A DNA stretch of 64,000 bases from Stappia taiwanensis (GTDB lineage: Bacteria; Pseudomonadota; Alphaproteobacteria; Rhizobiales; Stappiaceae): assembly GCF_014635285.1 (NCBI RefSeq), contig NZ_BMCR01000007.1:1-64000 (forward strand). The letters run 5' to 3'. Below are positions 14,669-49,078 of this stretch, piece after piece (positions within the stretch are counted from its first letter, which is position 1; each line of letters begins with the position of its first letter). Below the pieces are notes generated by a model. It worked only from the letters and a program-made list of their open reading frames with translations, was not told the DNA's origin and made no database searches. Made by a program: the position numbers and the translations under genes.

Positions 14669-16000
14669 TTAGCGCGGCGGCATCCGGAACACGGCTTCGA
14701 AACCATCACTCCGGCTTGGTGCCGGCGAGTGCAGTTCCAGCTGGCCGTGCACCCCCTCGGCGATGGCGCGGGCAATGGCAAGACCCAAGCCGCTGCCGTC
14801 GGCGGTGGCCTCGCCGCGCTCGAAGCGGGCGGTTAGCCGGGCGAGGCTCTCCGGGGCAAGAGCGGGGCCGTCATTGATGACGCCGAGGCTGCCCGCCGCT
14901 GAGAGCGTGACCTGAACCGGACTGTCGGCGGGGCTGTGCTTCAGGGCGTTCTCGATCAGATTGCGGGTCAGGATGGCGAAGGCATCCGGGTCCATGTCCG
15001 ACATCACCGGGGTGTCGGGAAGTCGAAGGTCGATGCGGTCGGCGGCCGAGGGGCCGGCAACGTCGGTGGCGATCATCTTCAGCAGTGGGCGCATGTCCGA
15101 AGCGGTCTCCGCATGCAACCGGCCGCTTTCCGCGCGCGAAAGCTGCATCAGTTTTTCGCTCATGCGGCTGAGGCGCTTCAGGGCACTCTCGATATCACCC
15201 GCCCGCCGTGCCGCATCCGCATCGCGCGTTTCGGCAATCAGCCGCTGGGTCTGCGCCAGAGCGGCGGCCAGCGGTGTGCGCAGTTCGTGGGCCGCATTGG
15301 CGGTGAAGCTGCGTTCCGCGTCGAGGGTGGCCCGTAGGCGGCTAAGTAGTTGGTTGATGGCGCGGGCCACGGGGGTGATTTCCGCCGGCAGCGTGCCGCT
15401 GTCCACCGGCGACAGGTCGCCGCCGCCGCGTGTCGCCAGTGCGGCGCTGAGGGCGCGAACCGGGCGCAAGGTTCGGCGCACCATCCACAAGATGCCGATC
15501 AGGCTGAGGGGGACCAGCAGCAGCAGCGGCAGCGCCATCGCCATTTGCGTTTCCCGCTCGATCCGGTCCCGGTGGTCGAGCGGTTCGGCAACGGCAATGG
15601 TGATGGTGCCCTGAAGGGCGGCGTCGTAGTAGAGCCGGTGGGTCGCGGTCTGGCGGAAGCCGGTGCCCTCGAACGGGGGGAAATCCGCCTCCACCGCCCG
15701 GTGTGAGCGCAGCAGGATCCGCCCCTGGTCGTCCCGCACCAGATAGGTGAAGAATTCGTCGTGGGTGCGCAGGGTGCTGATCCGGCGGCTGACCCCTTGC
15801 TCCTCACGGTCGATGATGTCGAGCACCGCCAATGGCAGGAGGCGCTGGGCGGTTTCCTCCAGCGTGCTGTCGAACATCTCGCCCATTTCCCGGCGCAGGA
15901 TCGACGTGGTGGTTACCGCGGTCGCGGCCCAGAGCAAGGCGATGCCAAGGCCGATGGCGAGCGCCAGCCGTCCTTGCAGCGAGCCGGGAAGCCGGCTCAT
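14669..16000 (-). CDS. Sensor histidine kinase, PmrB/QseC-like
   Basis: 443 residues. Membrane helix 1 at about 12-32, a periplasmic sensor domain (about 35-155), helix 2 at about 157-175 (LPLLLLVPLSLIGILWMV), then HAMP. The phosphorylated H238 is in FTANAAHELRTPLA; ATP-binding boxes are NLIENALKHSP and GSGLGLAIARAI. It overlaps the response-regulator gene by 4 bases, so they are co-translated. It diverges from the PepSY/DUF2271/flavoprotein operon, which it probably controls. The ligand may be a metal or redox signal, judged only from the neighbouring P-type ATPase and reductase genes. Confidence 0.93.
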   Translation of the reverse strand: MSRLPGSLQGRLALAIGLGIALLWAATAVTTTSILRREMGEMFDSTLEETAQRLLPLAVLDIIDREEQGVSRRISTLRTHDEFFTYLVRDDQGRILLRSHRAVEADFPPFEGTGFRQTATHRLYYDAALQGTITIAVAEPLDHRDRIERETQMAMALPLLLLVPLSLIGILWMVRRTLRPVRALSAALATRGGGDLSPVDSGTLPAEITPVARAINQLLSRLRATLDAERSFTANAAHELRTPLAAALAQTQRLIAETRDADAARRAGDIESALKRLSRMSEKLMQLSRAESGRLHAETASDMRPLLKMIATDVAGPSAADRIDLRLPDTPVMSDMDPDAFAILTRNLIENALKHSPADSPVQVTLSAAGSLGVINDGPALAPESLARLTARFERGEATADGSGLGLAIARAIAEGVHGQLELHSPAPSRSDGFEAVFRMPPR

Positions 16001-16659
16001 TGCGCCGCGCCCAGCCGGTAGCCAAGGCCCCGCACGGTCTCGATGGCCTCCCGCCCCAGTTTCTTGCGCAGCCGGCTGACATGCACCTCGATGGTGTTGC
16101 TCTCGATCTCCGTGTCGAAGGAATAAAGCCGCTCTTCAAGCTGCGCTTTGGACAGAAGCTGTCCCGGGTGCTGGAAGAAGGCCTCGAACAACACCCACTC
16201 ACGGGCGGTGAGGGCGATCGGCTTGCCGGCGCGCCGGACCGAACGGGCGGCGCTGTCGATCTCAAGATCGCCGAGCTTGAAAAGCGGGTTCGGGTTGCCG
16301 GCGTAGCGCCGGGCCACCGCATTCAGCCGGGCGGACAGCTCGGCCAGATCGAAGGGCTTGACCATGTAGTCGTCGGCGCCGGCGTTGAGCCCGTCGATCC
16401 GGTCGCTGAGCTGGTCGAGGGCGGTCAGGATGATCACCGGCGTGATGTCGCCGCGCCCGCGCAAGGCACGCAGGAACGGCTGGCCGCGCCCGTCGGGCAG
16501 CATCAGATCCAGCAGGATCAGGTCATAGGCGGCGGCCTCCTGCAGGGCGGAGGCCTCGTCGAGCCGGGTTGCCCAGTCGACGGAGTGGCCGTCGGCGGCG
16601 ATCTGGTCGCGCACCGCCGCGCCCAGCACCGCGTCATCCTCGATCAGAAGCACCCGCAT
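15997..16659 (-). CDS. OmpR-family response regulator
   Basis: 220 residues from ATG 16659 (MRVLLIEDDAVLG). The receiver domain has acidic D8 and D9, phospho-acceptor D51 (LILLDLMLPDG) and the KPFD loop. The C-terminal winged helix includes LTAREWVLFEAFFQHPGQ and IEVHVSRLRKKLG. Partner of the overlapping kinase. The intergenic region upstream contains a near-perfect 18-base inverted repeat (16708-16757) that probably serves as its binding site for both divergent promoters. Confidence 0.94.
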   Translation of the reverse strand: MRVLLIEDDAVLGAAVRDQIAADGHSVDWATRLDEASALQEAAAYDLILLDLMLPDGRGQPFLRALRGRGDITPVIILTALDQLSDRIDGLNAGADDYMVKPFDLAELSARLNAVARRYAGNPNPLFKLGDLEIDSAARSVRRAGKPIALTAREWVLFEAFFQHPGQLLSKAQLEERLYSFDTEIESNTIEVHVSRLRKKLGREAIETVRGLGYRLGAAQ

Positions 16660-16707: not shown

Positions 16708-16757
16708 CTGACAGCAACCTGAAGGCAATTGTGCACCGACCTTCAGGTGGTTGTCAG
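16708..16757. promoter_or_regulatory. Long inverted repeat between response regulator and PepSY operon
   Basis: CTGACAGCAACCTGAAGG (16708-16725) and CCTTCAGGTGGTTGTCAG (16740-16757) are inverse complements at 16 of 18 positions, separated by 14 bases. They sit midway between the two divergent start codons (16659 and 16806). The size suggests two response-regulator sites in opposite orientation, one facing each promoter. Confidence 0.7.
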
Positions 16758-16805: not shown

Positions 16806-17213
16806 ATGAAGAAATCCGCGATGATCGCGGCGCTGCTGGCGGCACTCGTCATGGCCGGCGGCGTCCGTGCCGATGACGATGATTGCCAGGTGCCGATGGC
16901 CGACTGGAAGCCGCGCGCGGCGGTGGAGGCGATGGCCAAGGCAAAGGGCTGGACCGTGCGCCGCATCAAGACCGATGACGGCTGCTACAAGCTGAAGGGA
17001 CGGGACGCGGACGGCCGCAAGATGAAGGCCAAGATCGATCCGGCGACGCTGGCGATTGTCGAGATCGAGTACCGCGACGACGACGACCACCGCCGCCGCG
17101 ATCATGACCGCGACCGCAAGCACAAGCACAAGCCGGCACCGACGGGTGCGGTCTCGCCGCCGAACAACGGATTGTTCAACACCACGTCCCCCGCGCAGCC
17201 GGTGGTGAAGTGA
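16806..17213 (+). CDS. Small exported PepSY-domain protein
   Basis: 135 residues. A Sec signal peptide (MKKSAMIAALLAALVMAGGVRA) leads to a single PepSY-like domain (VEAMAKAKGWTVRRIKTDDG..YKLKGRDADGRKMKAKIDP). The tail is rich in Asp, His, Arg and Lys (YRDDDDHRRRDHDRDRKHK), which could bind metal ions. First gene of the operon, 48 bases beyond the inverted repeat. Small PepSY proteins of this type are often controlled by an adjacent two-component system; the role is unknown. Possible functions are a periplasmic metal or redox accessory for the reductase encoded downstream. Confidence 0.8.
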   Translation: MKKSAMIAALLAALVMAGGVRADDDDCQVPMADWKPRAAVEAMAKAKGWTVRRIKTDDGCYKLKGRDADGRKMKAKIDPATLAIVEIEYRDDDDHRRRDHDRDRKHKHKPAPTGAVSPPNNGLFNTTSPAQPVVK

Positions 17214-17326
17214 AACCTCTTGCAGACGGTCTGATGCGATAAGGCAACCGCGTGCGGTACGAACCTCGCACCCGGTCCGCGCCTTGTCTTTCGCGCCGCC
17301 ACGCGTTCCTGAAACCGGAGAAGAAA

Positions 17327-17797
17327 ATGAAACCGTTCCTTGCCGTCATGGCCCTGACCACGGCCCTTGTCGCGCCGGACCTGGCCATGGCCAAGCAGGT
17401 CACCCTGACCACCACCCTCAACAACTACGGCGGCGATGGCGCCTATCTGGCGTTCTACGTCACCGATGCCAATGGCGCCTACAAGGGCAGCCTGTGGATG
17501 GCCGGCGGCAAGTCCAAGTACTACGAGCATCTGAGCGACTGGTTCCGGGCAACCGCCGGCAATGCGGCGGAAATCAACGGCATCACCGGGGCCAGCGTCG
17601 GGGCGGGACAGTCCCTCACGGTGACGCTGGATCTGGCCGATGCGCTGTTCGATGCCGGCTACGAGCTGCATATCGATGCCGCGGTGGAAGACATGCGCGA
17701 CAGCCCCTCGGAGGTGGTCATTCCGCTGACCCGCGAAGGGGCGGGCCAGGCCGTGCGTGGCCGCCGCTACATCGAAACCTTCAGCTACGACATGTGA
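17327..17797 (+). CDS. Exported DUF2271 protein with a flavinylation-like motif
   Basis: 156 residues from ATG 17327, preceded by CGGAGAAG. A signal peptide ends near ALAMA. The mature protein reads VTLTTTLNNYGGDGAYLAFYVTD, typical of DUF2271. Residues 84-90 are NGITGAS, close to the ApbE target motif D-x-x-(S/T)-G-A-(S/T); S90 would be the FMN-carrying residue. An apbE gene lies in the same operon, and DUF2271 proteins are known neighbours of PepSY reductases. Inference: it is a periplasmic flavoprotein that receives electrons from the PepSY-flavodoxin reductase. The Asn in place of Asp is unusual. Confidence 0.75.
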   Translation: MKPFLAVMALTTALVAPDLAMAKQVTLTTTLNNYGGDGAYLAFYVTDANGAYKGSLWMAGGKSKYYEHLSDWFRATAGNAAEINGITGASVGAGQSLTVTLDLADALFDAGYELHIDAAVEDMRDSPSEVVIPLTREGAGQAVRGRRYIETFSYDM

Positions 17798-17819
17798 CGC
17801 GGGAAGACGAGATAAAGTC

Positions 17820-20030
17820 ATGTTGCGTTCCCTGCACAAGATCCCCGGCCTTGTCGCCGCGGCTCTGATCCTTCTGCTCGCCACCACCGGTGTGGTGCTG
17901 TCGGTGCTGCCGGCGCTGGAAACGGCGCAGGCCCCGGCGGTGACCACGCCGGCGCCGAACACTGCCGAACTTGCGGCCCGGGTCGCCGCCGCCTATCCGG
18001 GCGTGGAGCAGATCCGGCGTGCGCCTTCCGGCCTGATCACGGCGTTCTATTTCGAGAATGACCGTCCGGGCCGGGTGGTGATCGACCCGGTGACCGGTGA
18101 AGGTGTCAGGGACTATACCCCCTCGGCCTTTTCCCGCTGGATGACCAATCTGCACCGTTCCCTGTTTCTGGACGATGGCGGACGGTTGACGGCCGCCGCC
18201 GGCGCGCTTGCCATGCTGGTTCTGTGCGTCTCCGGCTGTCTGCTCACCGTGCGGCGTGTGGGCGGCTGGCGCCGGCTTTTCTCGCGCCTGCGCGGACCGC
18301 TGGCGGGCCGTCTGCATGTGGAAATTGCCCGTATCGCCCTGCCGGGGCTGCTCTTGTCGTCGCTGACCGCGCTGGTGATGACCGCCGGAACCTTCGGCGT
18401 GCTGCCCTCGGACCGGGCCGCGCCGCTCTTTCCCACCGAGGTGAGCGAGACGATGGGCGCGGCGCCCGGCGAGATCGCCGCGCTGGCGGCGGTGCCGCTG
18501 GAGGATCTGCGCGAGCTGACCTTTCCCTATCCGGGCGATGCCACCGACGTCTTCACGCTGAAGACCGTGTCTGGCACCGGCTATCTGGATCAGGGAACCG
18601 GTGCCATGCTGGTTTGGGCCGATCACGGCCCCTGGCAGCAGCTTTCCGCCACCGTCAAGATGCTGCACACGGGCAGGGGCGCCTGGGTGCTGGGGCTTGT
18701 CCTCGGCCTGACCACGCTCGGTGCGCCGGTGCTGGCGGTGACCGGGATCATTGTCTGGCTAAGCGGGCGCCGCGCGCGGCCGCGCCTTCCGGCCGGCGCA
18801 CGTGCCGATCGGGCCGACACGATCGTGCTTGTCGGCAGCGAGGGCGGCAGCACCTGGGGCTTTGCCGCGACCCTGCACAAGGGGCTGATGGCCGCCGGGC
18901 ACACGGTGCACACCGCCGCGCTCTCCCGCTTCGCGCCGGAGCGCTACACCAACGCGCGGCAGGTCATCATCCTCGCCTCCACCTATGGCGATGGCGCCGC
19001 GCCGTCCTCCGCGCAAGGCTTTGCCGATCGGCTGGCGGCGCTGCCGGCGGCACCGGCGATGCCCTTGGCGGTCCTTGGTTTCGGTGACCGGCAGTTCCCC
19101 GATTTTTGCGGCTATGCCTGCGAGATCGCACGCCTTGCCGAGGAAAAGGGCTGGCCGCAACTCCTGCCGCTCGACCGGGTGGATCGGCAGTCGCCACAGG
19201 ATTTCGCCCGCTGGGGACGGGCGCTCGGCCAGGCGCTGGGCCACCCGCTGGAACTGGCGCACCAGCCGGCCCTGGCGCCGACCCATCCGCTGACGCTGAT
19301 CTCGCGTCGGGACTATGGCGCGGAGATGCAGGCGCCGACCTCGATCCTGCGCTTTGCCCTGCCGTCCATCGGGCTCTGGCAGCGGATCACCGGCAGAGGC
19401 TTCCCGAGCTTTGCCGCCGGCGATCTGTTGGGCATCCTGCCGGAAGGCTCGGCGGTGCCGCGTTTCTACTCGCTTGCCTCGGCCAGCCGCGACGGTTTTG
19501 TCGAGATCTGCGTGAAGAAGCACACCGGCGGCCTGTGTTCCGGCCAGCTCATCGGGCTTCGTCCCGGCGGCACGGTGCGCGGCTTCATCCGTCGCAACCC
19601 GGACTTCCGCCCGGTCGGCAACCGCAAGCCGGTGATCCTGATCGGTGCCGGCACCGGCATCGGACCGCTGGCCGGCTTTGCCCGGGCAAACCGCAAGGGG
19701 CGCGACATGCATCTTTATTTCGGTGCGCGGCACCCGAAGTCGGATCTTCTCTATGATGAGGAGCTGCGCCAGTGGCAGGCGAATGGTCGGCTCACCAGCG
19801 TCAACACCGCGTTTTCGCGGACGGCGGACCGGTCCTATGTTCAGGATATCCTGCGCAAGGACGCGGCGCGGATCACTGACCTGATCGAAGGCGGCGCCCA
19901 GGTGCTGGTGTGCGGCGGACGGGAGATGGCAAGCGGCGTGACGGCGGCGATGGCAGATATCCTGCAGCCGAAGGGGCTGACGCCGGCCACGTTGAAGGCG
20001 GAAGGCCGATATGTCGAAGATGTCTACTGA
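17820..20030 (+). CDS. PepSY transmembrane / flavodoxin / ferredoxin-NADP reductase fusion
   Basis: 736 residues. Residues 1-330 are a PepSY_TM-type unit with helices near 8-30, 125-145, 170-195 and 300-325; histidines in NLHRSL, GRLHVEI and KMLHTG are candidate heme ligands. A flavodoxin domain follows (VLVGSEGGSTWGFAATLHKG, ILASTYGDGAAPSS), then a sulfite-reductase-like FAD/NADP module (RFYSLASA for FAD, LIGAGTGIGPLAGF for NADP). It should carry electrons from cytosolic NADPH across the membrane to a periplasmic acceptor. Starts 22 bases after the DUF2271 gene and overlaps apbE by 20 bases. Related proteins are described as putative iron or sulfite reductases; the acceptor here is unproven. 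Confidence 0.88.
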   Translation: MLRSLHKIPGLVAAALILLLATTGVVLSVLPALETAQAPAVTTPAPNTAELAARVAAAYPGVEQIRRAPSGLITAFYFENDRPGRVVIDPVTGEGVRDYTPSAFSRWMTNLHRSLFLDDGGRLTAAAGALAMLVLCVSGCLLTVRRVGGWRRLFSRLRGPLAGRLHVEIARIALPGLLLSSLTALVMTAGTFGVLPSDRAAPLFPTEVSETMGAAPGEIAALAAVPLEDLRELTFPYPGDATDVFTLKTVSGTGYLDQGTGAMLVWADHGPWQQLSATVKMLHTGRGAWVLGLVLGLTTLGAPVLAVTGIIVWLSGRRARPRLPAGARADRADTIVLVGSEGGSTWGFAATLHKGLMAAGHTVHTAALSRFAPERYTNARQVIILASTYGDGAAPSSAQGFADRLAALPAAPAMPLAVLGFGDRQFPDFCGYACEIARLAEEKGWPQLLPLDRVDRQSPQDFARWGRALGQALGHPLELAHQPALAPTHPLTLISRRDYGAEMQAPTSILRFALPSIGLWQRITGRGFPSFAAGDLLGILPEGSAVPRFYSLASASRDGFVEICVKKHTGGLCSGQLIGLRPGGTVRGFIRRNPDFRPVGNRKPVILIGAGTGIGPLAGFARANRKGRDMHLYFGARHPKSDLLYDEELRQWQANGRLTSVNTAFSRTADRSYVQDILRKDAARITDLIEGGAQVLVCGGREMASGVTAAMADILQPKGLTPATLKAEGRYVEDVY

Positions 20031-20991
20031 TCCGGCATTGGTCGCTCTTGACGGTCCGGTGATGGGCACCCGCTGGTCGGCGCTGTTCCGGGCGCCGGCC
20101 GGACTGGACAGCGAAGCGGTCCGCGCCGCGCTGGCCGCCAGCGTCGGCGAGGTGGACCGGCAGATGTCCACCTACCAGCCCCAGTCGGATCTGATGCGGC
20201 TGAACCGGGCGCCGGCAGGGGTGTGGATGCCGGTTCCCGAGCGGCTGTTCGAAGTGCTGGCGCGTGGGCTGGCCATCGGCCGCGCCTCGCGTGGCGCCTT
20301 CGATATCGGCATGGGCGATGTGGTCGCCGCCTGGGGGTTTGGTCCGGATGCGGCGGATGTCCAGGCGGTGAAGGCGGCGCTCGGCAAGACCCGGCCGCCG
20401 GCGCATGAGCTCTTGGAACTCGATGCGGCCGCGCTGACCGTGCACAAAGGCGGGCCGGTCGCCATTGATCTGTCCGGCATTGCCAAGGGGTATGGCGCCG
20501 ACCGAATGATCAAGGCGCTGGACGGGTTCGGCATCCGTGACGCGCTTGTCGGGCTTGATGGCGAGATGCGCGCGCGCGGGCTGCGCGGCGACGGCAGACC
20601 CTGGACCGTTGCGGTGGAACGGCCCGACTATGAAACACGCACCGCATTGTCGGTTCTGGAGTTGGAGGATGCGGCGGTGGCCACCTCCGGCGACTATCGT
20701 CATTGGGTTGAGGTTGGCGGGCGGCGCCTGTCGCACACCATGGACCGGCGGCGCGGCGGGCCGGTGGATGGCGGGCTTGCCTCGGTCTCCGTGGTGGCCG
20801 AAACCTGTATGGATGCCGATGCCTGGGCGACTGCGCTGATGGTGCTGGGCCTGCCCGCTGGGCTGGAGATGGCGCGCGAACAGAAGCTGGACGCCCTGTT
20901 CATCGAACGTGACGGTGCCGGGTTTCGCCTACACCGGACCGGAGCAATTTTCAATGCCCCCGATCGGGTCGCGGTTTCGACGGTCGGGTGA
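20011..20991 (+). CDS. apbE: FAD:protein FMN transferase ApbE, no signal peptide
   Basis: 326 residues from ATG 20011 (or 20020). ApbE motifs: GPVMGTRWSALF near the N-terminus, RGAFDIGMGDVVAAWGFG, VAIDLSGIAKGYGADRM, VATSGDYRHWVEVGGRRLSHTMD and CMDADAWATALMVLG. The enzyme moves FMN from FAD onto a Thr or Ser of a target protein. Most ApbE proteins are exported; here the conserved core starts within about 15 residues of the start and an in-frame stop lies just upstream, so no signal peptide is possible. The likely target is the DUF2271 protein in the same operon. How a cytosolic enzyme meets an exported target is an open question. Confidence 0.93.
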   Translation: MSKMSTDPALVALDGPVMGTRWSALFRAPAGLDSEAVRAALAASVGEVDRQMSTYQPQSDLMRLNRAPAGVWMPVPERLFEVLARGLAIGRASRGAFDIGMGDVVAAWGFGPDAADVQAVKAALGKTRPPAHELLELDAAALTVHKGGPVAIDLSGIAKGYGADRMIKALDGFGIRDALVGLDGEMRARGLRGDGRPWTVAVERPDYETRTALSVLELEDAAVATSGDYRHWVEVGGRRLSHTMDRRRGGPVDGGLASVSVVAETCMDADAWATALMVLGLPAGLEMAREQKLDALFIERDGAGFRLHRTGAIFNAPDRVAVSTVG

Positions 20992-21004
20992 GGAGAACGA
21001 TTGA

Positions 21005-22900
21005 ATGTATGGAGTGGTTCGTAGCCGGCTGAATGTTGTTCTGGTGGCGCTTGCCCTTGCGGGGTTGCTCGGCGGTCTTGCTGCCCTTTGGTTTGGCACG
21101 CGGGGGCTGGCGGATACGGTCTGGATGCTTGGCGTTGCACCGGTGCTGCTGGCGTTGGTCGTCGAGATCGTGCAGAGCCTGCGCCGGGGCGAGGTCGGTC
21201 TCGATATCGTTGCCGCGCTCTCCATGTCGGCGGCGATGCTGTTCGGCGAGACGCTCGCCGCCGCCATCGTCGCGCTGATGTATTCCGGCGGCAGTTTTCT
21301 GGAAAGCTTCGCCGAAGGGCGGGCGCGGCGGGAAATGAGCGATCTGCTCTCCCGGGTGCCGCGCAGTGCCATGCGCCATCGCAACGGAGCGCTGGATGAG
21401 GTGCCGCTGGAGGAAATCGAGCCGGGAGACCTCCTGCTGATCCGCCAGGGCGATGTGGTGCCGGTGGATGGCACGGTTGCCGGCAGCCAAGCGGTGCTCG
21501 ACCAGTCGGCGCTGACCGGCGAATCGCTGCCGGTGCGTCTTGGCCGCGACCACGAAGTCATGAGCGGGTCGAGCAATGTGGGCGAGCCGTTCGACATGGT
21601 GGCGAGCCGCCGCGTCGGCGACAGCACCTACGCCGGCATTGTCCGGCTGGTGGAGGCGGCGCAGCGCTCCCGGGCGCCGATGGCGCGTCTGGCCGACCGC
21701 TATTCGCTGTTGTTTTTGCTGGTGACCGTGGTGCTGGCGGGGCTCGCCTGGTGGCTTACCGGGGATCCCATTCGCGCGGTTGCCGTTCTGGTGGTGGCAA
21801 CGCCCTGTCCGCTGATCCTCGCCGTTCCGGTGGCGCTCGTCGCCGGCCTGTCGCGGGCGGCACATTTCGGCGTGCTGATCAAGGGCGCGAAGGCGCTGGA
21901 GGCGCTGGCGCGGGTGCGCGGTCTGGTGCTGGACAAGACCGGCACCCTCACCGACGGCCGTCCGCGTATTGTCGCCATCCACTCGGCGGGCGATCTGGAC
22001 CCGGCGCGGATGCTTGGCTTCGCCGCAGCGCTCGATCAGGTGTCCAAGCACCCCATCGCCCAGGCGATTGTCGCCGATGCGCGGGCACGCGGAATGACCT
22101 TGCCGATCCCTGACACTCTCAGGGAAATTCCGGGTGAGGGGGTCCTTGGGCATGTCGAGGGTCATGAGGTGGTCGTCGGCGGCACGGCTTTCGTGATGGC
22201 GCGGGTGACGGAGGGCGGACCGGCCGAGCCGATCCGCGAGGATGGCGCGGCGGTGGTGGCGCTGGCGGTGGATGGCCGGTTCGCCGGGCATATCCTTTTG
22301 GCGGACACCTTGCGGGAGGGCACGTCAGAATTTCTCTCCGGTCTGCGCCGGCTGGGCGTGAAACGCATTCTCCTGGCAACCGGGGATCGCCAGGCCGTGG
22401 CCGCCCATGTGGCCGACGGGCTCGATTTCGACAAGATCCGCGCGGAGCTGGCGCCGGAAGAGAAGGTTGGGCTGGTGCTGGAGGAGCGCGGGGCCGGCCC
22501 GGTGATGATGGTCGGCGATGGGGTCAATGACGCCCCGGCGCTGGCCGCCGCCGATGTGGGCGTGGCGATGGGCGCGCGCGGTGCTGCCGCTTCCGCCGAG
22601 GCCGCCGATGTGGTGTTGCTGGTGGACCGCCTCGACCGGCTGTTGCCGGGGCTGGAAATCGCTCAACGAGCCCGGCACATCGCCCTGGAAAGCGTGGTGG
22701 TCGGCATCGGCCTGTCCGTCCTGGGCATGATTGCCGCCGCCTTCGGCTATCTCGCGCCGGTGCAAGGCGCGGTCCTGCAGGAAGTGATCGACGTGGCGGT
22801 GATCCTCAATGCCCTGCGCGCCTTGCGGATCCGTCCGACCGCCCCCGGTGAGACCATGGACGTCCCCCAGCCGGCGGGCGTGCCCGAAGCCGCCGTCTGA
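21005..22900 (+). CDS. Heavy-metal P1B-type ATPase with a TPCPL motif
   Basis: 631 residues. The actuator motif TGES is near residue 170. The membrane metal-site motif is ATPCPLI with C268, not the CPC of copper/zinc pumps. The phosphorylated D310 is in DKTGT; the nucleotide domain has SKHPIAQ and the hinge GDGVNDAPAL includes D505. There is no N-terminal heavy-metal-associated domain. It starts 13 bases after apbE, so it belongs to the redox operon. P1B pumps with a TPC motif are poorly studied and their metal is uncertain. A functional link is inferred: metal reduction in the periplasm coupled to metal transport. Confidence 0.9.
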   Translation: MYGVVRSRLNVVLVALALAGLLGGLAALWFGTRGLADTVWMLGVAPVLLALVVEIVQSLRRGEVGLDIVAALSMSAAMLFGETLAAAIVALMYSGGSFLESFAEGRARREMSDLLSRVPRSAMRHRNGALDEVPLEEIEPGDLLLIRQGDVVPVDGTVAGSQAVLDQSALTGESLPVRLGRDHEVMSGSSNVGEPFDMVASRRVGDSTYAGIVRLVEAAQRSRAPMARLADRYSLLFLLVTVVLAGLAWWLTGDPIRAVAVLVVATPCPLILAVPVALVAGLSRAAHFGVLIKGAKALEALARVRGLVLDKTGTLTDGRPRIVAIHSAGDLDPARMLGFAAALDQVSKHPIAQAIVADARARGMTLPIPDTLREIPGEGVLGHVEGHEVVVGGTAFVMARVTEGGPAEPIREDGAAVVALAVDGRFAGHILLADTLREGTSEFLSGLRRLGVKRILLATGDRQAVAAHVADGLDFDKIRAELAPEEKVGLVLEERGAGPVMMVGDGVNDAPALAAADVGVAMGARGAAASAEAADVVLLVDRLDRLLPGLEIAQRARHIALESVVVGIGLSVLGMIAAAFGYLAPVQGAVLQEVIDVAVILNALRALRIRPTAPGETMDVPQPAGVPEAAV

Positions 22901-39487: not shown

Positions 39488-40447
39488 TCAGCGGAAGGTC
39501 AGCGGGATGGTGAAGCGCCAGCGGGTTTTGCCGGTACTGGCCGGAATGCGCGGGAAGGGCGCCGCACGGCCGACGGTCTCCAGCGCCGCCCGGTCGAGGA
39601 TCGTCGAACCGGAGCTGCGGACGACGCGCACGCCGGTCGCCGCCCCGGAGCTTTGCACGGTAAAGCCGACGGTGACTTCACCGGTGAGCCCCTTGCGCCG
39701 GGCCGACCGCGGATAGCGCAAGGAGCGACCGAGCTTGCGCCGGACAAGGCCGGGATAGTTTGACCTTGCGGCGTTGCCTGCGTCGCGGGTCTTCGCCCCG
39801 CCGCGCGAACCGCCCTTTTGCACGGTCTGTCGCCCCTTGCCGCCGGCCCCGGGCGCGCTTTTCGCGCGTGCTGTCCTGGCCGCCTTGTCGCGCCGTTTCG
39901 GCTTCACCTGTTTCTGGGCCTGTTTCCGCTCCGGCTTTTTCGTCGTGGGCGTTGCCGCGGCGATCCGGGTGATCTCCGGAGGGCGGGCGATGGGACGCGG
40001 CACTGTCGGGCTCTGTTCCGCCGCCCGGCTTTCTGCGGTCCTGGCAGCCGTTGCCGCCACCGGTTTTGCCTCTGTGGGGCGTGCGATTGCGGCTCGGACC
40101 GTCTGCGCCGCAGAGGGTTTGAGAGCCGGCTGGGCCTCCGGCCTGACCGCCTTCGGTTGGCTCTGTTGCGGCGGTTGGGGCCGCAGCGCCCCTGCCGGTT
40201 CGGCGGCAGTTGCCGTCTGTGTCGGGCTTTGCTGCGGCTGAACCGCCCCGCCCCCGGCCTGTGCACCGGCGGCGATGCTGCTGGTAAAGGCTTGGCCGAT
40301 CTGCACCGAGGCGCGCGCACCGGCGCCGGCAAGCTGTTCCTCCGGCGCGCGGCCATTCAGGGCGAAGGCGGCGCCGAGATGGACCGCCAGCGAGGCGGCC
40401 ACCGCCAGAAGCCGGTAGGGCGGGCGAAAGGCGCGGCGCTCGGTCAT
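39488..40447 (-). CDS. tonB: TonB energy-transducing protein (heme system)
   Basis: 319 residues. One N-terminal helix (YRLLAVAASLAVHLGAAFAL), a long Pro/Ala/Lys-rich spacer, and a C-terminal TonB domain (YPGLVRRKLGRSLRYPRSARRKGLTGEVTVGFTV... ending FTIPLTFR). Links the inner-membrane ExbBD motor to HmuR. Last gene of the minus-strand hmuR-exbB-exbD-exbD-tonB unit; it overlaps the second exbD by 4 bases. A second TonB is encoded at 56412. Confidence 0.92.
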   Translation of the reverse strand: MTERRAFRPPYRLLAVAASLAVHLGAAFALNGRAPEEQLAGAGARASVQIGQAFTSSIAAGAQAGGGAVQPQQSPTQTATAAEPAGALRPQPPQQSQPKAVRPEAQPALKPSAAQTVRAAIARPTEAKPVAATAARTAESRAAEQSPTVPRPIARPPEITRIAAATPTTKKPERKQAQKQVKPKRRDKAARTARAKSAPGAGGKGRQTVQKGGSRGGAKTRDAGNAARSNYPGLVRRKLGRSLRYPRSARRKGLTGEVTVGFTVQSSGAATGVRVVRSSGSTILDRAALETVGRAAPFPRIPASTGKTRWRFTIPLTFR

Positions 40448-40875
40448 GACCCGGCCCGCATGGTCACCACCGACACGCTGCCGGCGCCGGCGGCATAAAG
40501 CGCATCCACCAGCGTCAGCAGGCGCACCGCCGGCAAGGCCCGGTCGGCGGCAAGGCGGATGGCGGGCAGTGGGGGAACGTCCCCCGGCTCTCTTTCTCCC
40601 GCCGTTTCCCTTCCTCGCGCATGATCGGTCATGAACGCCTCGGCGCTGGTGGCTTGCCCGCGATAGCGCAACACTCCTTCAGCATCTGCGAAGAGCGCAT
40701 CGGGGGGCGGCAACGGCGGCGCGCCGGTTGTTTCCGCCAGCGATACCTCGGGATCGACCGGTGGCGACAACTGGCCGGCAATGAGGAAAAAGATCAGCAT
40801 CAGGAAGACGATGTTGATCAGCGACAGGGTGTTTTCCTGCGGCCGTTTCGGTCGGGAATGTGCCATGCGGATCAT
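40444..40875 (-). CDS. exbD: ExbD-type proton-channel subunit, second copy (heme system)
   Basis: 143 residues from ATG 40875. One N-terminal helix (LSLINIVFLMLIFFLIAGQL) without the usual aspartate of ExbD (D25 in E. coli; here N-I-V-F). A periplasmic domain follows (IRLAADRALPAVRLLTLVDALYAAG). It lies 4 bases after the first exbD. The missing acidic residue suggests it is not a proton-carrying copy by itself and may pair with the first ExbD. Confidence 0.8.
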   Translation of the reverse strand: MIRMAHSRPKRPQENTLSLINIVFLMLIFFLIAGQLSPPVDPEVSLAETTGAPPLPPPDALFADAEGVLRYRGQATSAEAFMTDHARGRETAGEREPGDVPPLPAIRLAADRALPAVRLLTLVDALYAAGAGSVSVVTMRAGS

Positions 40876-40879
40876 CGCC

Positions 40880-41257
40880 TTACCTCGCCACGGTGATCTG
40901 CAGGGGGGTGATCGCACCCAGCCGGTCGAGCGCGGCCACGAGATCCTGGGTGGAGGCATCGCCGCCGGGCAGGAGCAGCGCGGTCTTCGCGCCCTTGCCG
41001 ACGAGATCGGTGACCGCCTCCGCCGCGCCCTCAAGGTCCATGGTCAGGCCGTTGAGGCGCAGACCCTGCCCGTCGACGGTCAGGAAGATATCCGGGGCAG
41101 GGCCTGCGCCGCCCTGTCCTCCAGCGGCCAGGTCGACCTTCCCGAACCGGGTGAAGGTCGAGGACAGCATGAAGAACAGCAGCAACAGGAAGATGACGTC
41201 GATCAGCGACGTCAGGGACAAGGGCCGCCGCCGGGCCATGGGTCGGTCAATGCGCAT
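40880..41257 (-). CDS. exbD: ExbD-type proton-channel subunit, first copy (heme system)
   Basis: 125 residues from ATG 41257. The helix reads LSLTSLIDVIFLLLLFFMLSSTF, with the conserved aspartate (LIDV) that carries protons. A periplasmic domain follows. It overlaps exbB by 11 bases. Together with ExbB it turns the proton gradient into movement of TonB. Confidence 0.9.
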   Translation of the reverse strand: MRIDRPMARRRPLSLTSLIDVIFLLLLFFMLSSTFTRFGKVDLAAGGQGGAGPAPDIFLTVDGQGLRLNGLTMDLEGAAEAVTDLVGKGAKTALLLPGGDASTQDLVAALDRLGAITPLQITVAR

Positions 41258-41948
41258 GGGCCACCCGGGGGGCAATTGTCGGAACCTCATCGGCAAGCGG
41301 CAGCGCGGGGCTGCCGACCCCGTGCAAGAGGATGGCCATGGGCAGGGTTTCCACCGCCACCCGCTCGCTTTCCAGACGCTCCTCCAGATAGGTGACGGCG
41401 AGCGACACCGGCATGGCGACCGCAAGACCGGCGGCGGTGGTCAACAGCGCCACCCAGATGCCGCCGGCCAGCGCGGATGGGTCGACCGCATTGCCCGCCA
41501 ATTGGAGCTGCTGGAAGGCTTCGATCATGCCCAGCACCGTGCCGAACAGACCGAGCAGCGGCGCGATCTGGGCAATCGAGTCGAGCGCCTTCAGCCCCCG
41601 GCCAAGCTGGTGGAAGCGCTCGCCGGCGACCCGGGCGATGTCTTCCTCGATCCGGGCCTTGTCTCCCTCGGGGCGCTCGGCGAAGCGCATGGCCATGGCG
41701 ACAGCCTCCTCCGCCGCGCTCGTCGCCCCGCTGAGGGCGCGCCAGGCATCGCCGCGCCGGCCGTGGCTCCAGTGCAGCACGGCGGCGCGCGCCCGGGCTG
41801 GCCGGCCGACCCGGGCTTGCAGGAACTGGCCGAGCTTCAGCATCAGGAGGGCGAGGGCGATGACCGACAGGCCGGCAAGCAGCGCCACCACCGGCCCGCC
41901 CAGGTCGATCAGGGCAAGAATGGGTTGCAACAGATCAGGGGCGGACAT
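41247..41948 (-). CDS. exbB: ExbB/TolQ/MotA-family protein (heme system)
   Basis: 233 residues. Three helices: about 17-40, 128-150 (LGLFGTVLGMIEAF, the MotA/TolQ/ExbB signature) and 165-190 (GGIWVALLTTAAGLAVAMPVSLAV). It forms the proton-channel pentamer with ExbD. It follows a small exported protein (12-base gap) downstream of hmuR, so it is dedicated to heme uptake. Confidence 0.93.
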   Translation of the reverse strand: MSAPDLLQPILALIDLGGPVVALLAGLSVIALALLMLKLGQFLQARVGRPARARAAVLHWSHGRRGDAWRALSGATSAAEEAVAMAMRFAERPEGDKARIEEDIARVAGERFHQLGRGLKALDSIAQIAPLLGLFGTVLGMIEAFQQLQLAGNAVDPSALAGGIWVALLTTAAGLAVAMPVSLAVTYLEERLESERVAVETLPMAILLHGVGSPALPLADEVPTIAPRVAHAH

Positions 41949-41960
41949 AGGCGAAAACTC

Positions 41961-42422
41961 CTATTGAATGACGGCAATGTCGGTTCGGCTGGAAAGGTGC
42001 AGCGGCGCGGTGCACAGCGGGGCGGCGGTACGATTGTCGTCGCCACCGGTACAGCCGGCCGGACCATTGACCAGAAGCCGGCTAAGGTTCGGGCAAGACA
42101 CTCCGGGAAGGTCGAACTGGCGGACGACGGTCTTGGCCGGCGCCAGCGCGCCGAAATCGAGGGTGGTGAGCTGCTCCACCAGCCCCGCCTTGTTGAACAG
42201 CACCACTTCGTAGCGGGCCGCGTCGATGGCGCGACCTGTGTCGTTGCGGATGACGAAGGTGAGCAGGCACCCGGCTGAACCGGGCGCGACCCGGTTCAGC
42301 TCAAGGGCCAGCCCCTTGTCCGCGTTGGCGGGCGGGGCTGCCTCCGTCGCCGAGGCGAAAGCGGGGAACAGCGCCGCCGCCGACAGGGCGGCGGCAGCCA
42401 GGATCGAGACGGCGAGTTTCAT
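41961..42422 (-). CDS. Small exported cysteine-containing protein of the heme-TonB operon
   Basis: 153 residues from ATG 42422; a GTG or TTG further upstream is unlikely. A signal peptide (MKLAVSILAAAALSAAALFPAFASA) leads to a domain with an immunoglobulin-like look (LTFVIRNDTGRAIDAARYEVVLFNKAG) and four cysteines (GCLLTF, VSCPNL, GCTGGD, LCTAP) that could form two disulfides. It lies between hmuR and exbB, 8 bases downstream of hmuR and 12 bases before exbB. No family was recognised. It could be a periplasmic partner for heme receptor or TonB, but this is only from position. Confidence 0.75.
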   Translation of the reverse strand: MKLAVSILAAAALSAAALFPAFASATEAAPPANADKGLALELNRVAPGSAGCLLTFVIRNDTGRAIDAARYEVVLFNKAGLVEQLTTLDFGALAPAKTVVRQFDLPGVSCPNLSRLLVNGPAGCTGGDDNRTAAPLCTAPLHLSSRTDIAVIQ

Positions 42423-42430
42423 GCGCGGGC

Positions 42431-44527
42431 CTACCATCCGAAGGTCTTCGCCAGGGTTAGCTTGAAGGTGCGGCCCCGGCCATCGTCGCCGGAGAGGTTC
42501 GCCCGGTACTGCTTGTCGAACAGGTTCTCCACGGCGGCCCGCACCTGCAGCCCGGAAAAGCGCCCCTCATCCGGCGTCCAGTTCATGAACAGGTCATGCA
42601 CCGCGTAGCCGCCGAACGGACCGGTGGTGGCGCCGGTGGAGATCGAGGCGGCGAACAGGCCGCGCCAGCCGAACGAAAGGTCATGCTCGGGCAGGCGGCC
42701 GCCGAGGGTGACCGCCAGCGTGTCGGCCGGGATCGTCGTCAGGGTCTGGCCGGTCGCCTTGTCTTCCCCGCGCGTGAGGCTGTAGGCGAGGCTGGCGAAG
42801 GCGTAGTCCATGTCATAGGCGGCCTCGACCTCCACGCCGTAGATCTCCGCCTCGTCCACATTGACGTAATAGACCACCGGCACCGCCGCGCCGCGATTGG
42901 GGTTGGTGGTGATCAGGTCGTGCAGGTCGTTGTAAAAGCCGGTGGTCTTGAGCTGCAGGCTGTCCCCGTCGGTGACAAGGTCCTGGGTGGAGATGGCAAA
43001 ACCCACCTCGACGGAGTTGGAAGTTTCCTTCTTCAGGTTGAGGCTTGGTAGGCGCCCGCCGGGATAGTCCGCATTCGGGCCGGCACTGGAGAACATCTCA
43101 TCAAGGGTCGGCACCCGCTGGGTATGGGCAACGGAGCCGAACAGCGAGAAGGTCTCGTTGATCTGGTACATCACCGCCAGTTTCGGCGAAAAGGCGATGT
43201 CGTTGCTGGTCTTGGCGCCGGGAACCGATGCGTCCGGGCGCAGGTTGACGAAGTCGAGCCGGGCGCCGGGAATGACGGTGAGCTTCTCGTTCCAGATGAA
43301 CTCATTCTGGAAGAACACGCCGTATTTGGTGTCCGTTCCTTCCGGGTGGAAGCCGATCGGACCGGTGCTCGCCTCGGCAAAGCGCTGCTGGTGGCTGAGC
43401 TGGCCGCCGACGGTGAGGAAGTTCTCAAAGCCGTCGCCGCTGTGCTCGAAGGTGTTTTCCGCCTTGGCCGCCCAGGTGCGGTAGCCGTAGTCGGAATCGG
43501 CGAACAACGGCGAGGGAATGAAGTTGAACGAGGAATTTTCCTGCCGCACCTTGGTGTCGGACAGGGACAGGTTCAGCTTGAAATCGAGCAGCGGGTTGCT
43601 GCTGGCCGGGTTCTCGTAGCTCAGCACCACCGTCTGGTCGGTGATCTTGCGGTCGATGGTGCCGAACGGCAGGGTGCCGGTCTGCGAATACTCGGTATCA
43701 TCCGCATCGCTCTGCCAGCGCTGGTAGGACAGCCGCACCGCCTGTTCGTCGTTCTCGCCGAAGCGGTGGGTCAGCTTGGCCAGCCCGGAGAAGGCGGCGA
43801 AATCGGAGCCGGGCACCGGCACGCCATTGCCGTTCTCGTATTCGCTGGAGCGGCGGAAGTTGCCGTTCAGCAGCACCTCCGTGCCGTTGGAAAAGGCATG
43901 GGCGGCGGAGATCGAGGCCAGCACCCCGTCCTTGTTGGAATCGTACATGGACTTGAGCTGGACGGCGGTGGTCTGCCCGTCCTTGAGGAAATCGGCCGCG
44001 TCTTTGGTGGTGAAGTTGATCACGCCGCCGAGCGCGCCGGAACCGTAAAGGGTCGAGGAGGCCGGGCCGCGCAGCACCTCCACCCGCTTGTAAAGTTCCG
44101 GATCGCTGAAGAACGAGCCGAGCCGGTATTGCTCGTAGAATTTCACCGCGCCGTCGACGGTGACGACGATCTTCGATTCGTCGGAAGCCTCAAGCCCGCC
44201 GATGCCGCGAATGTTGAAGGACTGGCCGGCGGTCCGCTCGCTGCCGATGACGGTGACGCCCGGCACCTGGCGCAGGATGTCGCCGATCACCATCGGCTGT
44301 TCTTCGTCGATCGCCTCCTGATCGAGGACCGTGACCGCCTGGGGCGTGTCGATCGCCACCTTTTCCACGCCCGCGCCGATCACCAGCCGTTGCAACAGGG
44401 TCGAGGCGCCGGGCGCATTGACCGTTGCCGCATCCTGCGCCCGCGCCTGCGGCGCTAGCGCGATAAAAAGCGCGCCGAGGGCGACACCGTTCTTCCAAAC
44501 CGCAAGTTTGCCAGCGGCCATATGCAT
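42431..44527 (-). CDS. hmuR: TonB-dependent heme/hemoglobin receptor
   Basis: 698 residues. Signal peptide, then TonB box/plug (VAIDTPQAVTVLDQEAIDEEQPMVIGDILRQVPGVTVIGSER) and a beta barrel ending in ...GRTFKLTLAKTFGW, with the terminal aromatic. The FRAP/NPNL-type heme motif is approximately GNFRRSSEYENGNG and NPNRGA; this needs an alignment. The first gene of the minus operon with exbB, two exbD and tonB. Its promoter contains two IRO boxes. Divergent from hmuSTUV, as in rhizobial heme loci. Confidence 0.92.
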   Translation of the reverse strand: MHMAAGKLAVWKNGVALGALFIALAPQARAQDAATVNAPGASTLLQRLVIGAGVEKVAIDTPQAVTVLDQEAIDEEQPMVIGDILRQVPGVTVIGSERTAGQSFNIRGIGGLEASDESKIVVTVDGAVKFYEQYRLGSFFSDPELYKRVEVLRGPASSTLYGSGALGGVINFTTKDAADFLKDGQTTAVQLKSMYDSNKDGVLASISAAHAFSNGTEVLLNGNFRRSSEYENGNGVPVPGSDFAAFSGLAKLTHRFGENDEQAVRLSYQRWQSDADDTEYSQTGTLPFGTIDRKITDQTVVLSYENPASSNPLLDFKLNLSLSDTKVRQENSSFNFIPSPLFADSDYGYRTWAAKAENTFEHSGDGFENFLTVGGQLSHQQRFAEASTGPIGFHPEGTDTKYGVFFQNEFIWNEKLTVIPGARLDFVNLRPDASVPGAKTSNDIAFSPKLAVMYQINETFSLFGSVAHTQRVPTLDEMFSSAGPNADYPGGRLPSLNLKKETSNSVEVGFAISTQDLVTDGDSLQLKTTGFYNDLHDLITTNPNRGAAVPVVYYVNVDEAEIYGVEVEAAYDMDYAFASLAYSLTRGEDKATGQTLTTIPADTLAVTLGGRLPEHDLSFGWRGLFAASISTGATTGPFGGYAVHDLFMNWTPDEGRFSGLQVRAAVENLFDKQYRANLSGDDGRGRTFKLTLAKTFGW

Positions 44528-44595
44528 TTCCGGTCTCCAGACATTCCTCGTCTGCTCGCTGGCATCGGCTCGCTCGCTTTTCGGTGGGTGAAATA

Positions 44596-44610
44596 TGAGT
44601 TAACAACTCA
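44596..44610. promoter_or_regulatory. IRO box 1 (RirA-type iron-responsive operator)
   Basis: TGAGTTAACAACTCA matches TGA-N9-TCA and is itself a perfect palindrome in its outer 6 bases (TGAGTT/AACTCA). It is 69 bases upstream of hmuR. Confidence 0.75.
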
Positions 44611-44633
44611 GGTATTGATGTGGATACGAAACA

Positions 44634-44648
44634 TGAGTATTTGAGTCA
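44634..44648. promoter_or_regulatory. IRO box 2
   Basis: TGAGTATTTGAGTCA also fits TGA-N9-TCA, with weaker inner symmetry, 24 bases from box 1. Both lie in the hmuR/hmuS divergent region and suggest repression by RirA when iron is plentiful. Confidence 0.65.
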
Positions 44649-44865
44649 AGATATTGATCGGCGGTTTCGACCGCACTGACCCGGGTGCGATGCAAAGCCA
44701 GCACACTCCGGGCCGCCCGTCGCGGCGGGCCATCGCCCGCCCTTTCCGACCGGTGGCCGAGTGGAGCGCAAGCACAGCCGAGCCCCCGCCGCGCGCGCCT
44801 TTACGAGGCGTGCCTGTGCTTCCTGCGGCGGCACCCCATTTCGCGGGGCGGCCCAATCACGGACA
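44649..44865. other. Leader of hmuS
   Basis: 217 bases upstream of hmuS. Open frames run through it but with no family resemblance, and no HemP/HmuP small gene was found. A GC-rich hairpin (GGGCCGCCCG..CGGCGGGCC) is near 44701-44722; its role is unclear. Confidence 0.35.
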
Positions 44866-45933
44866 ATGGCTATGACAGATATCTCTCTCGACATTGATCA
44901 GATCCGGCGCATGCGCGATGGCAATCCGAAGATGCGCGAGCGCGACCTGGCCCGGATGATGGGCATCAGCGAGGCGGAGCTGGTGGCCGCGTTCTGCGGC
45001 GAGACCGTGCGCCGGATCAATGTGCGATTCGACACGCTGTTTCCCGCGCTGGAGGCAGTGGGCGAGGTGCTGGCGCTGACCCGCAACGAAAGCGCCGTGC
45101 ATGAGAAGGTCGGCGTCTACGACCGGTTCATCGACGGCAAGATGGCGGCAATGATGCTTGGCGCCGACATCGACATGCGCATGTTTCCCGCCCATTGGGT
45201 CCATGGTTTTGCCGTCGAACGGCCGCAGCAGGATGGATCGGTGCGCCGCAGCCTGCAGGTCTTCGACCGGCATGGCGATGCGGTCCACAAGATCCATGCC
45301 CGCGAGGCGACGGATATCGCCGCCTGGGACGCGCTGGTGGCAAGCCATCTCGCCGAGGACCAGACGCCCGGCCTTGGCATTCGCCCGGAACCGGCGGTGC
45401 TGCCTGTCCGTCCGCCGCTGGATACCTCCCAGCGTGCGTCCTTGCGGGCCGGCTGGGCGGCGATGACCGATCCGCACCAGTTCCATGGCCTCTTGCGCAA
45501 GTTCAAGCTGCACCGGCTGGACGCGCTGGAGCTGGCCGGAGAGCCGCACGCATGGCAGTTGCAGCCCGATGCGGTCTCCGCCACCCTGCGCCTTGCCGCC
45601 AACGAGGCGCTGCCGATCATGTGCTTCGTCGGCAGCCGTGGCTGTATCCAGATCCATTCCGGTCCGGTGGAGACCGTGGCGGTGCGCGGACCATGGATCA
45701 ACGTGATGGATCCGGGCTTCCATTTGCATCTGCGCACCGATCAGATTCACGAGGCCTGGGCGGTGCGCAAGCCGACGCCTGAGGGGCATGTCACCTCCAT
45801 CGAGGCCTATGACGCGGACGGCACGCTGGTGATCCAGTTCTTCGGTCTGCGCAAGGAAGGCGCGGACGAGCGCGGCGACTGGCGCGCGCTGGTGGAGAAC
45901 CTCCCCCGCCTGTCGCTGCTTCCCGCGCAGTGA
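44866..45933 (+). CDS. hmuS: Heme-utilisation protein HmuS (ChuS/HemS family)
   Basis: 355 residues, ATG 44866 (or 44872, MTDISLDIDQIRR). Two homologous halves, each of ChuS type: DLARMMGISEAELVAA, RRINVRFDTLFPALEAVGEVLALTRNESAVHEKVGVYD in the first and FHGLLRKFKLHRLDALELAGEPHAWQL ... MCFVGSRGCIQIHSGPV in the second. Accepts or degrades heme in the cytosol after import. First gene of the plus operon with hmuTUV. IRO boxes upstream. Confidence 0.94.
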   Translation: MAMTDISLDIDQIRRMRDGNPKMRERDLARMMGISEAELVAAFCGETVRRINVRFDTLFPALEAVGEVLALTRNESAVHEKVGVYDRFIDGKMAAMMLGADIDMRMFPAHWVHGFAVERPQQDGSVRRSLQVFDRHGDAVHKIHAREATDIAAWDALVASHLAEDQTPGLGIRPEPAVLPVRPPLDTSQRASLRAGWAAMTDPHQFHGLLRKFKLHRLDALELAGEPHAWQLQPDAVSATLRLAANEALPIMCFVGSRGCIQIHSGPVETVAVRGPWINVMDPGFHLHLRTDQIHEAWAVRKPTPEGHVTSIEAYDADGTLVIQFFGLRKEGADERGDWRALVENLPRLSLLPAQ

Positions 45934-45941
45934 GGTCCCCC

Positions 45942-46832: not shown

Positions 46833-46851
46833 CAAAGAGGAGCGGCGGATC

Positions 46852-48815: not shown

Positions 48816-48887
48816 CGTGCATATCTTGCAAGCTATCCATTTGGCCGCATTGACGGGCGCTTGGCGGCTGGGACATAGTCGATCCTT

Positions 48888-49078
48888 GAAAGTGGTTTCC
48901 GTGAAACACACGGATGAATAGGGAACACGGTGAGGATACCCCCCTTTGGGGCCAAGACCGTGGCTGCCCCCGCAACTGTGAGCGGCGAGCCGGCATCTGA
49001 AAGACCACTGACCCATGCCTCGGCATGGGTTGGGAAGGTGGATGCCCGGCGCTGACCCGCAAGCCAGGAGACCTGCCG
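48888..49078 (+). promoter_or_regulatory. Cobalamin (adenosylcobalamin-type) riboswitch
   Basis: The conserved parts occur in order: GGTTTCCGTG (48894-48903), AGGGAACACGGTGAG (48920-48934), GGCTGCCCCCGCAACTGTGA (48962-48981), the B12-box-like AAGACCACTGACCC, and the closing GACCCGCAAGCCAGGAGACC (49054-49073). It lies about 230 bases before btuB. It should switch off btuB and the following genes when B12 is present, by hiding the ribosome site or terminating transcription. Confidence 0.95.

Follow-up and report, generated by a model that had tools for sequence, protein, structure and literature searches.

Gene clusters that combine PepSY, DUF2271 and ApbE proteins have been counted in the thousands and are read as iron-uptake reductases, with few members tested (PMC8238504). 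Among the PepSY-like clusters described there, 1077 PepSY genes carry an NAD-binding domain and VIT1 is found in 167 clusters, and a role in iron reduction and assimilation has been proposed (PMC8238504). The flavinylation link between ApbE, PepSY and DUF2271, the reduction of iron and the presence of VIT1 next to clusters of this kind have already been published. Here we describe a locus of Stappia taiwanensis (contig NZ_BMCR01000007.1, positions 1 to 64,000; this stretch of 64,000 nucleotides is referred to as the window) in which these components share an operon with a P1B-5-type metal ATPase and lie opposite a divergent two-component system. The initial annotation had tied ApbE, PepSY and DUF2271 to flavin redox chemistry, a link that had been published (PMC8238504), and had joined them to the pump and the sensor. 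By titles, abstract openings and term counts, no paper that places DUF2271 in one cluster with either a P1B pump or a two-component system was found, let alone one on the combined unit, and the terms 'P-type ATPase' and 'efflux' occur zero times in the main text of PMC8238504.

The best explanation that we can offer is a sensor-controlled iron-handling module in which periplasmic Fe(III) is reduced and Fe(II) exported, which we put forward as possible, somewhat short of probable. Its parts carry different weights: judged from domains and residues, a transmembrane flavin/heme electron path is very likely; the metal is probably iron; and export is modestly favoured as the direction of transport. 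These weights, and that given below to the full model, are rough judgements.

Operon layout and probable electron path

The genes named in the initial annotation at 16806-22900, together with the divergent two-component system, are all present in the order it gave, according to the open reading frame (ORF) list and Pfam. On the forward strand are genes for a secreted PepSY_2 protein with an Asp/His/Arg/Lys-rich linker and a C-terminal PAPTGAVSPPNNGLF tail (16806..17213; Pfam E value 1.3e-25), a periplasmic DUF2271 protein (17327..17797; 1.5e-34), a membrane reductase with PepSY_TM (2.1e-35), Flavodoxin_1 and NAD_binding_1 domains (17820..20030), an ApbE flavin adenine dinucleotide (FAD):protein flavin mononucleotide (FMN) transferase (20011..20991; 2.5e-77) and the pump, with E1-E2_ATPase and Hydrolase domains (21005..22900). 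Spacers of 113, 22, -20 (an overlap) and 13 bp are expected of a single operon. The reverse strand encodes an OmpR/PhoB-type response regulator with Trans_reg_C (15997..16656) and a sensor histidine kinase with 2CSK_N, HAMP, HisKA and HATPase domains (14669..16000; Pfam). Likely starts were chosen over longest-ORF starts at 17327 (DUF2271), 17820 (reductase) and 16656 (regulator, at MRVLLIEDD; 16770 in the ORF list).

The flavin/heme path is supported by four invariant histidines in blocks aligned with FoxB and by an ApbE site in the DUF2271 protein. His 6, 112, 166 and 283 of the reductase are invariant in 54 of 54 aligned proteins, and in an AF2 model of modest quality (pLDDT 72.7, pTM 0.44) each of four transmembrane helices (9-36, 119-147, 162-191 and 286-319) has one of them at or near one end. 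Sixteen sequences of the membrane half were combined into a profile, which matched FoxB (PDB 7ABW; E 4e-5) with all four histidines within aligned blocks; a single-sequence search with the reductase did not recover FoxB. A PepSY_TM domain with four histidines of the heme-ligand type places the reductase with FoxB-type proteins by sequence, and it would be expected to hold heme. Its cytosolic half matches diflavin-type reductases in the PDB by both sequence and fold, and such enzymes fill the top 50 Foldseek places for the whole protein. A flavodoxin joined to an FAD/NADPH half is the CysJ/CPR-type arrangement, with all 14 NCBIfam matches falling below their own cut-offs.

An [ST]GA[ST] motif is present in 54 of 55 aligned DUF2271 proteins. 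In the window it reads NGITGAS (17576..17596, forward strand; residues 84-90), the predicted site of covalent FMN attachment by ApbE, and the same motif has been shown to be flavinylated in a different DUF2271 protein (PMC8238504). A PF03929 protein clustered with ApbE and DUF2271, as here, is the mark of the PepSY-like flavinylation class. Judged by eye and with no predictor run, the DUF2271 protein has a Sec-like leader ending in AMA; its predicted model (pLDDT 70.6) found no PDB fold match at E 0.001 or better. The operon's ApbE starts with MSKMST directly before the fold, with no visible leader, as do those of 37 of 38 relatives (by eye; L028 is unclear), and it may work intracellularly. 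Elsewhere in the same genome, another ApbE gene (G000:C1:772659-773453, L162) encodes a protein with a Tat-like leader. No ApbE match was obtained in plasmid regions of Citrobacter freundii and Marinobacter (L163, L165). In two loci ApbE lies in two frame pieces (L135:9935-10839 and L057:8016-8920), and in another (L060:5413-7994) the reductase and ApbE matches, which overlap in relatives, lie about 2.6 kb apart, possibly through an insertion.

Sensor, operator and secreted partner

The intergenic region between the regulator and PepSY_2 genes contains the sequence CTGAC-N6-CTGAAG (box 1, 16708..16724, forward strand), with direct half-sites 11 bp apart, and its reverse complement (box 2, 16741..16757, reverse strand), placed head to head. 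Half-sites 11 bp apart fit a regulator of the OmpR/PhoB type. Of 30 intergenic regions, 28 have both boxes at no more than one mismatch, 17 of them exactly, vs 11 of 1200 control windows, which were drawn from the same sequences and some of which may overlap a true site. Allowing up to two mismatches, the offset between boxes is 32 bp (23 regions) or 33 bp (7 regions) in 30 of 30. Beyond the operon, the genome has two further single boxes, about the level of chance. These counts support a conserved operator between the divergent transcription units. The nearest NCBIfam models to the regulator are PmrA and QseB, and it scores below the cut-off of both.

The kinase has a periplasmic ExxE motif (E38xxE41) directly after its first transmembrane helix. 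Among cassette kinases, 30 of 34 have the motif at this aligned position, compared with 2 of 16 non-cassette 2CSK_N kinases from the genus. In BqsS, the second Glu of a periplasmic ExxE binds Fe2+ (PMC12666569).

In 50 of 57 loci, the gene immediately upstream of DUF2271 encodes a protein with NGLF and a short conserved tail at its end; 3 loci have a variant and in 4 none was found, in a count that favours a motif-bearing ORF among those ending close upstream. The last 75 residues of these proteins are acidic at a median of 29%, with Asp runs of up to 24; the window's protein is milder (16% acidic) and has PepSY_2. Three NGLF-tail members lacking PepSY_2 matched no Pfam family. At L055:4877-5281, a secreted protein with a 24-residue Asp run and the NGLF tail has no Pfam family. 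The NGLF-tail protein looks like a metal-binding or docking partner.

The pump, its fellow transporters and the conserved core

The pump was assigned by Pfam, NCBIfam and alignment. It shares 57.5% identity over 584 aa with an 809-aa ORF on pSymA of S. meliloti 1021, which carries a C-terminal Hemerythrin domain. This ORF, unannotated in its record, is probably Nia, given its hemerythrin tail, replicon and motif. Nia is the only P1B-5 enzyme to have been biochemically characterised, with Fe2+ and Ni2+ as substrates (PMC4932525), and a C-terminal hemerythrin-like domain occurs in only some members of the class (PMC9388753). The window pump has no hemerythrin tail by Pfam, which the P1B-5 class does not require, and neither Cys nor His in its first 60 residues. 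The two features that mark the class are both found, namely a TPCP transmembrane site (TPCPL, 21800..21814) and homology to Nia, and export of Fe2+ or Ni2+ by a pump with this Nia-like core is plausible. The relationship to P1B-5, with VIT1 as a recurrent partner, narrows the metal to iron (or Mn/Ni). The pump also exceeds the cut-offs of two NCBIfam heavy-metal ATPase subfamilies, TIGR01525 and TIGR01512.

The initial annotation had called TPCPL a rare site. All 80 pump-anchored loci, a set chosen without regard to that motif, have TPCPL in the matched frame, and so does the S. meliloti protein; it is the ordinary site of this pump class, and a rare site or new pump type is rejected. A second signature, QE.ID in the last helix (QEVID in the window, 22778..22792), is present in 86 of 87 aligned pumps (86 selected for TPCPL, plus S. 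meliloti). For the alignment and tree of the pump, 86 of 89 selected proteins were used, and three lacking TPCPL were excluded: L076 and L084, where another, longer ATPase had been taken and the true pumps have TPCPL, and L019, with a 33% relative only. On this quick tree the cassette label changes 12 times vs 28.3 in shuffles, so the cassette was gained or lost repeatedly. Pump and reductase distances correlate at 0.93 in 24 loci with all five genes (two near-identical loci of 26 removed), a value to which shared descent contributes.

The sensor, regulator, DUF2271, reductase and ApbE genes are here termed the core. DUF2271 is present in 13 of 61 relatives, the window's own genome included, and the DUF2271-anchored neighbourhoods of the 12 other genomes contain the full core in 13 of 13, the pump in 7 and VIT1 in 6; one of the pump-less ones (L021) ends inside ApbE at a contig end. 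From the other side, 80 pump-anchored loci were read, the best of 577 relatives and not a random draw. ApbE adjoins the pump in 29 of the 80, and the full core in 19 of these 29; the remaining 10 are cut by a contig or locus end on that side, all 19 uncut ones being complete. Among the 51 pump loci without ApbE, 3 have fewer than 1100 bases upstream.

In an order-level sample of 249 genomes, DUF2271 exceeded its cut-off in 33 and the pump type (E 1e-140) was found in 59, with both in 14 and within 10 kb of each other in 3 (overlaps read by eye from two tables). A class-level sample of 289 genomes gave 15 with DUF2271 and 6 with the pump, co-located only in the window's own genome. Twenty order-sample loci, hand-picked from 38 over-cut-off places and including one (G526) taken in the knowledge that a pump was near, contained the core in 18, VIT1 in 4 and the pump in 1, which argues that the core is the unit and the pump optional. 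L141 and L142, where the core is missing, encode a more distant ApbE and have neither this type of sensor nor this type of reductase. Completeness of the core in 13 of 13 relatives' and 18 of 20 order-sample loci is more than chance would allow. The conservation that the initial annotation had asked for thus holds for the core, whereas the pump (7 of 13, 1 of 20) does not share it, and the five genes as an obligatory unit are rejected by the order and class samples, where DUF2271 and the pump are rarely co-located. Of the sense-reduce-transport unit it had proposed, the electron path, the divergent sensor with its operator and the pump within the operon stand; as read from gene content, those three words are a fair description of the fullest cassettes, with transport as a modular part.

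VIT1 is the second recurrent transporter. It is present in 21 of 29 pump loci with ApbE vs 6 of 51 without (Pfam checks were made on single members) and occurs without the pump in L146, L149 and L150. VIT1 directly follows the reductase in two closely similar plasmid regions, one on Citrobacter freundii pPSV and one from Marinobacter; these regions (L163, IncHI1B, and L165) hold a ferric-reductase-like gene, PepSY_2, DUF2271, the reductase and VIT1. In Cupriavidus pinatubonensis, unlike in the window, a hemerythrin-tailed P1B-5 ATPase and a CDF protein lie on the kinase's other side. A review of iron efflux lists P-type ATPases, including Nia (filed under P1B4), and the VIT1-like MbfA (PMC7762939). 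P1B-5 and VIT1 are thus classes containing known iron exporters, and they are joined to the core in more than one arrangement.

A cytochrome b561 or ferric-reductase-like gene lies between PepSY_2 and DUF2271 in 5 of 13, 13 of 19 and 1 of 18 core loci; at the thresholds used, no core locus has both. The window's operon is a trimmed form without b561, the ferric-reductase-like gene or VIT1. Three loci depart from these arrangements: at L158:11476-12099 b561 directly follows ApbE instead of lying between PepSY_2 and DUF2271; at L053:5629-10902 the sensor, regulator, PepSY_2 and pump stand together without DUF2271, reductase or ApbE; and at L102:4933-8262 a cassette-less pump locus is adjoined by a different set of b561, PepSY_2-like, regulator and kinase genes.

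Relatives are carried on transferable plasmids, including beta- and gammaproteobacterial ones. A DUF2271 relative was found in 97 plasmid records (71 typed conjugative) and the reductase in 94 (70 conjugative), 38 of the records for each gene coming from a single genus, Pseudosulfitobacter. Klebsiella plasmids are among the listed matches to the reductase. Of four pump-bearing plasmid regions read, those of Ponticoccus, Mameliella and Roseovarius have the full cassette, and that of Paracoccus seriniphilus has the pump only, beside a cytochrome b.

The operon's flanks seem unrelated by eye: the ORF before it is presumably isomerase-like, and those after it are, we assume, molybdate-transport-like. 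About 17 kb from the operon, window positions 39488-55634 encode TonB, two TonB receptors, HemS, two FecCD permeases, binding proteins and an ExbB-like protein (Pfam).

Weighing of the explanations and comparison with known systems

In the mechanism that we propose, the kinase would detect a periplasmic signal, most likely a metal ion, and the regulator would bind the head-to-head boxes between both transcription units and switch both on. Electrons from NADPH would enter the reductase on the cytosolic side, at its FAD/flavodoxin part, cross the membrane over two hemes held on His pairs and be taken up in the periplasm by DUF2271-bound FMN, which would reduce Fe(III) to Fe(II); the Fe(III) may be held by the acidic PepSY_2/NGLF protein. 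The P1B-5 pump, with VIT1 in relatives, would move Fe(II) out of the cytosol. The net effect would be that cytosolic iron is lowered and periplasmic iron kept soluble. In its fullest form the model is tentative: a dedicated reductive iron-export system with a metal sensed by a two-component system, a flavin/heme wire keeping periplasmic iron ferrous, P1B-5 and VIT1 emptying the cytosol, an Asp-rich NGLF-tail iron buffer, dissemination by conjugative plasmids across the Alpha-, Beta- and Gammaproteobacteria, and an ApbE apparently working inside the cell.

Several observations weigh against this mechanism. In the literature such reductases are assigned to iron uptake (PMC8238504, PMC12004947), which makes a reductase beside an exporter odd. 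Deletion of nia in another S. meliloti strain left Cu, Zn, Cd, Pb and Ni tolerance unchanged, iron not being among the metals reported there (PMC4932525), and TIGR01512, which accepts the window pump above its cut-off, is the cadmium subfamily of NCBIfam. An ApbE with no visible leader is mismatched with a predicted DUF2271 substrate that has a Sec-like leader. An ExxE motif lies at most 10 residues before the aligned place in 7 of the 16 non-cassette 2CSK_N kinases, for which reason the motif was dropped as proof of iron sensing and lends weak to moderate support. The cassette is absent from 51 of 80 pump loci, most order-sample DUF2271/reductase loci have neither pump nor VIT1 nearby, a Rhizobium plasmid carries the core with no adjoining metal transporter, and VIT1 was not found anywhere in the window's own genome. 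A ZIP-like neighbour (L157, below the Pfam cut-off) and a Ca-type ATPase neighbour on a Paraburkholderia plasmid (L166) indicate that the partners are not all iron exporters.

The published uptake role could be kept if the reductase were assimilatory, freeing iron for importers elsewhere in the genome, with the pump serving only as a safety valve against overload. Related PepSY/DUF2271 operons are repressed by Fur and, in Caulobacter, make a difference once a chelator is present (PMC12004947, PMC8238504); ferrisiderophores are substrates of FoxB-type reductases (PMC13038864); and heme and TonB uptake genes are at hand at 39-55 kb of the window. Against this, no importer or TonB receptor is among the clusters recurring around the pump in cassette loci, and the ORFs after ApbE in 22 loci include none by eye save one ZIP-like protein, the recurrent partners being of exporter type; the distant DUF2271 loci L141 and L142, which may be of the Caulobacter type, do not have this kind of sensor or reductase. 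We consider an assimilatory role unlikely. Little weight also goes to the same machine working on Mn, Ni, Co, Cd or Cu, even though the substrates of P1B-5 pumps also include Ni and those of VIT1 proteins Mn, and certain PepSY_TM proteins may act as copper reductases. Nia has been reported for Ni and Fe (PMC4932525), CrpH is proposed to be a copper reductase (PMC13038864), the pump passes the cadmium model, the PLSDB row of the Citrobacter VIT1 carries a manganese homeostasis term, and CDF and ZIP-like neighbours exist. Iron is nevertheless the one metal that unites the reductase, the ferric-reductase-like protein, P1B-5 and VIT1, and no copper-type partner is among the clusters recurring in cassette loci.

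It is less likely still that the core is a general periplasmic outlet for electrons, or a repair system (redox balance, repair of oxidised proteins or quinones), next to which the pump and VIT1 arrived by plasmid traffic. Neither pump nor VIT1 accompanies the core in 14 of the 18 order-sample loci that have it, and the core spreads on plasmids; chance neighbours, however, sit poorly with the recurrence of the same two transporter classes across arrangements and bacterial classes, and with the pump-reductase distance correlation, itself partly shared descent. A sensor-controlled, often plasmid-borne and exporter-tied subfamily argues that some PepSY/DUF2271/ApbE clusters do the opposite job from uptake, that is, the handling of excess metal. 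The cassette also offers a sharp test of the site at which ApbE acts and of the role of its Asp-rich secreted partner.

Compared with described systems, the window pump shares TPCPL and QExxD with the Nia-like ORF of S. meliloti, and differs from Nia in lacking the hemerythrin tail and in having a reductase and a sensor as operon partners. The reductase shares its PepSY_TM half and four histidines in aligned blocks with FoxB of P. aeruginosa (7ABW); unlike FoxB, it is fused to flavodoxin and NAD(P)/FAD parts, and no siderophore gene is seen in the cassette. FezB is reportedly the iron ATPase of ferrosomes. The ferrosome protein FezC, a membrane cytochrome partnered with an iron ATPase, resembles the pairing in the window (PMC11334425), with a DUF4405-like cytochrome in place of PepSY_TM, a comparison made with no search for ferrosome genes. 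The kinase is likened to that of BqsRS, the ferrous-iron sensor of P. aeruginosa, which has a periplasmic ExxE (PMC12666569), by this motif, which is partly specific here. The PepSY-like flavinylation clusters, as presented in PMC8238504, have the same PepSY_TM, DUF2271 and ApbE components and the same ApbE motif as the window. Relative to them, the operon's ApbE has no visible leader, the seven proteins of the locus include no DUF4198, and the window adds a dedicated two-component system with its operator, an NGLF-tail protein and a P1B-5 pump (PMC8238504).

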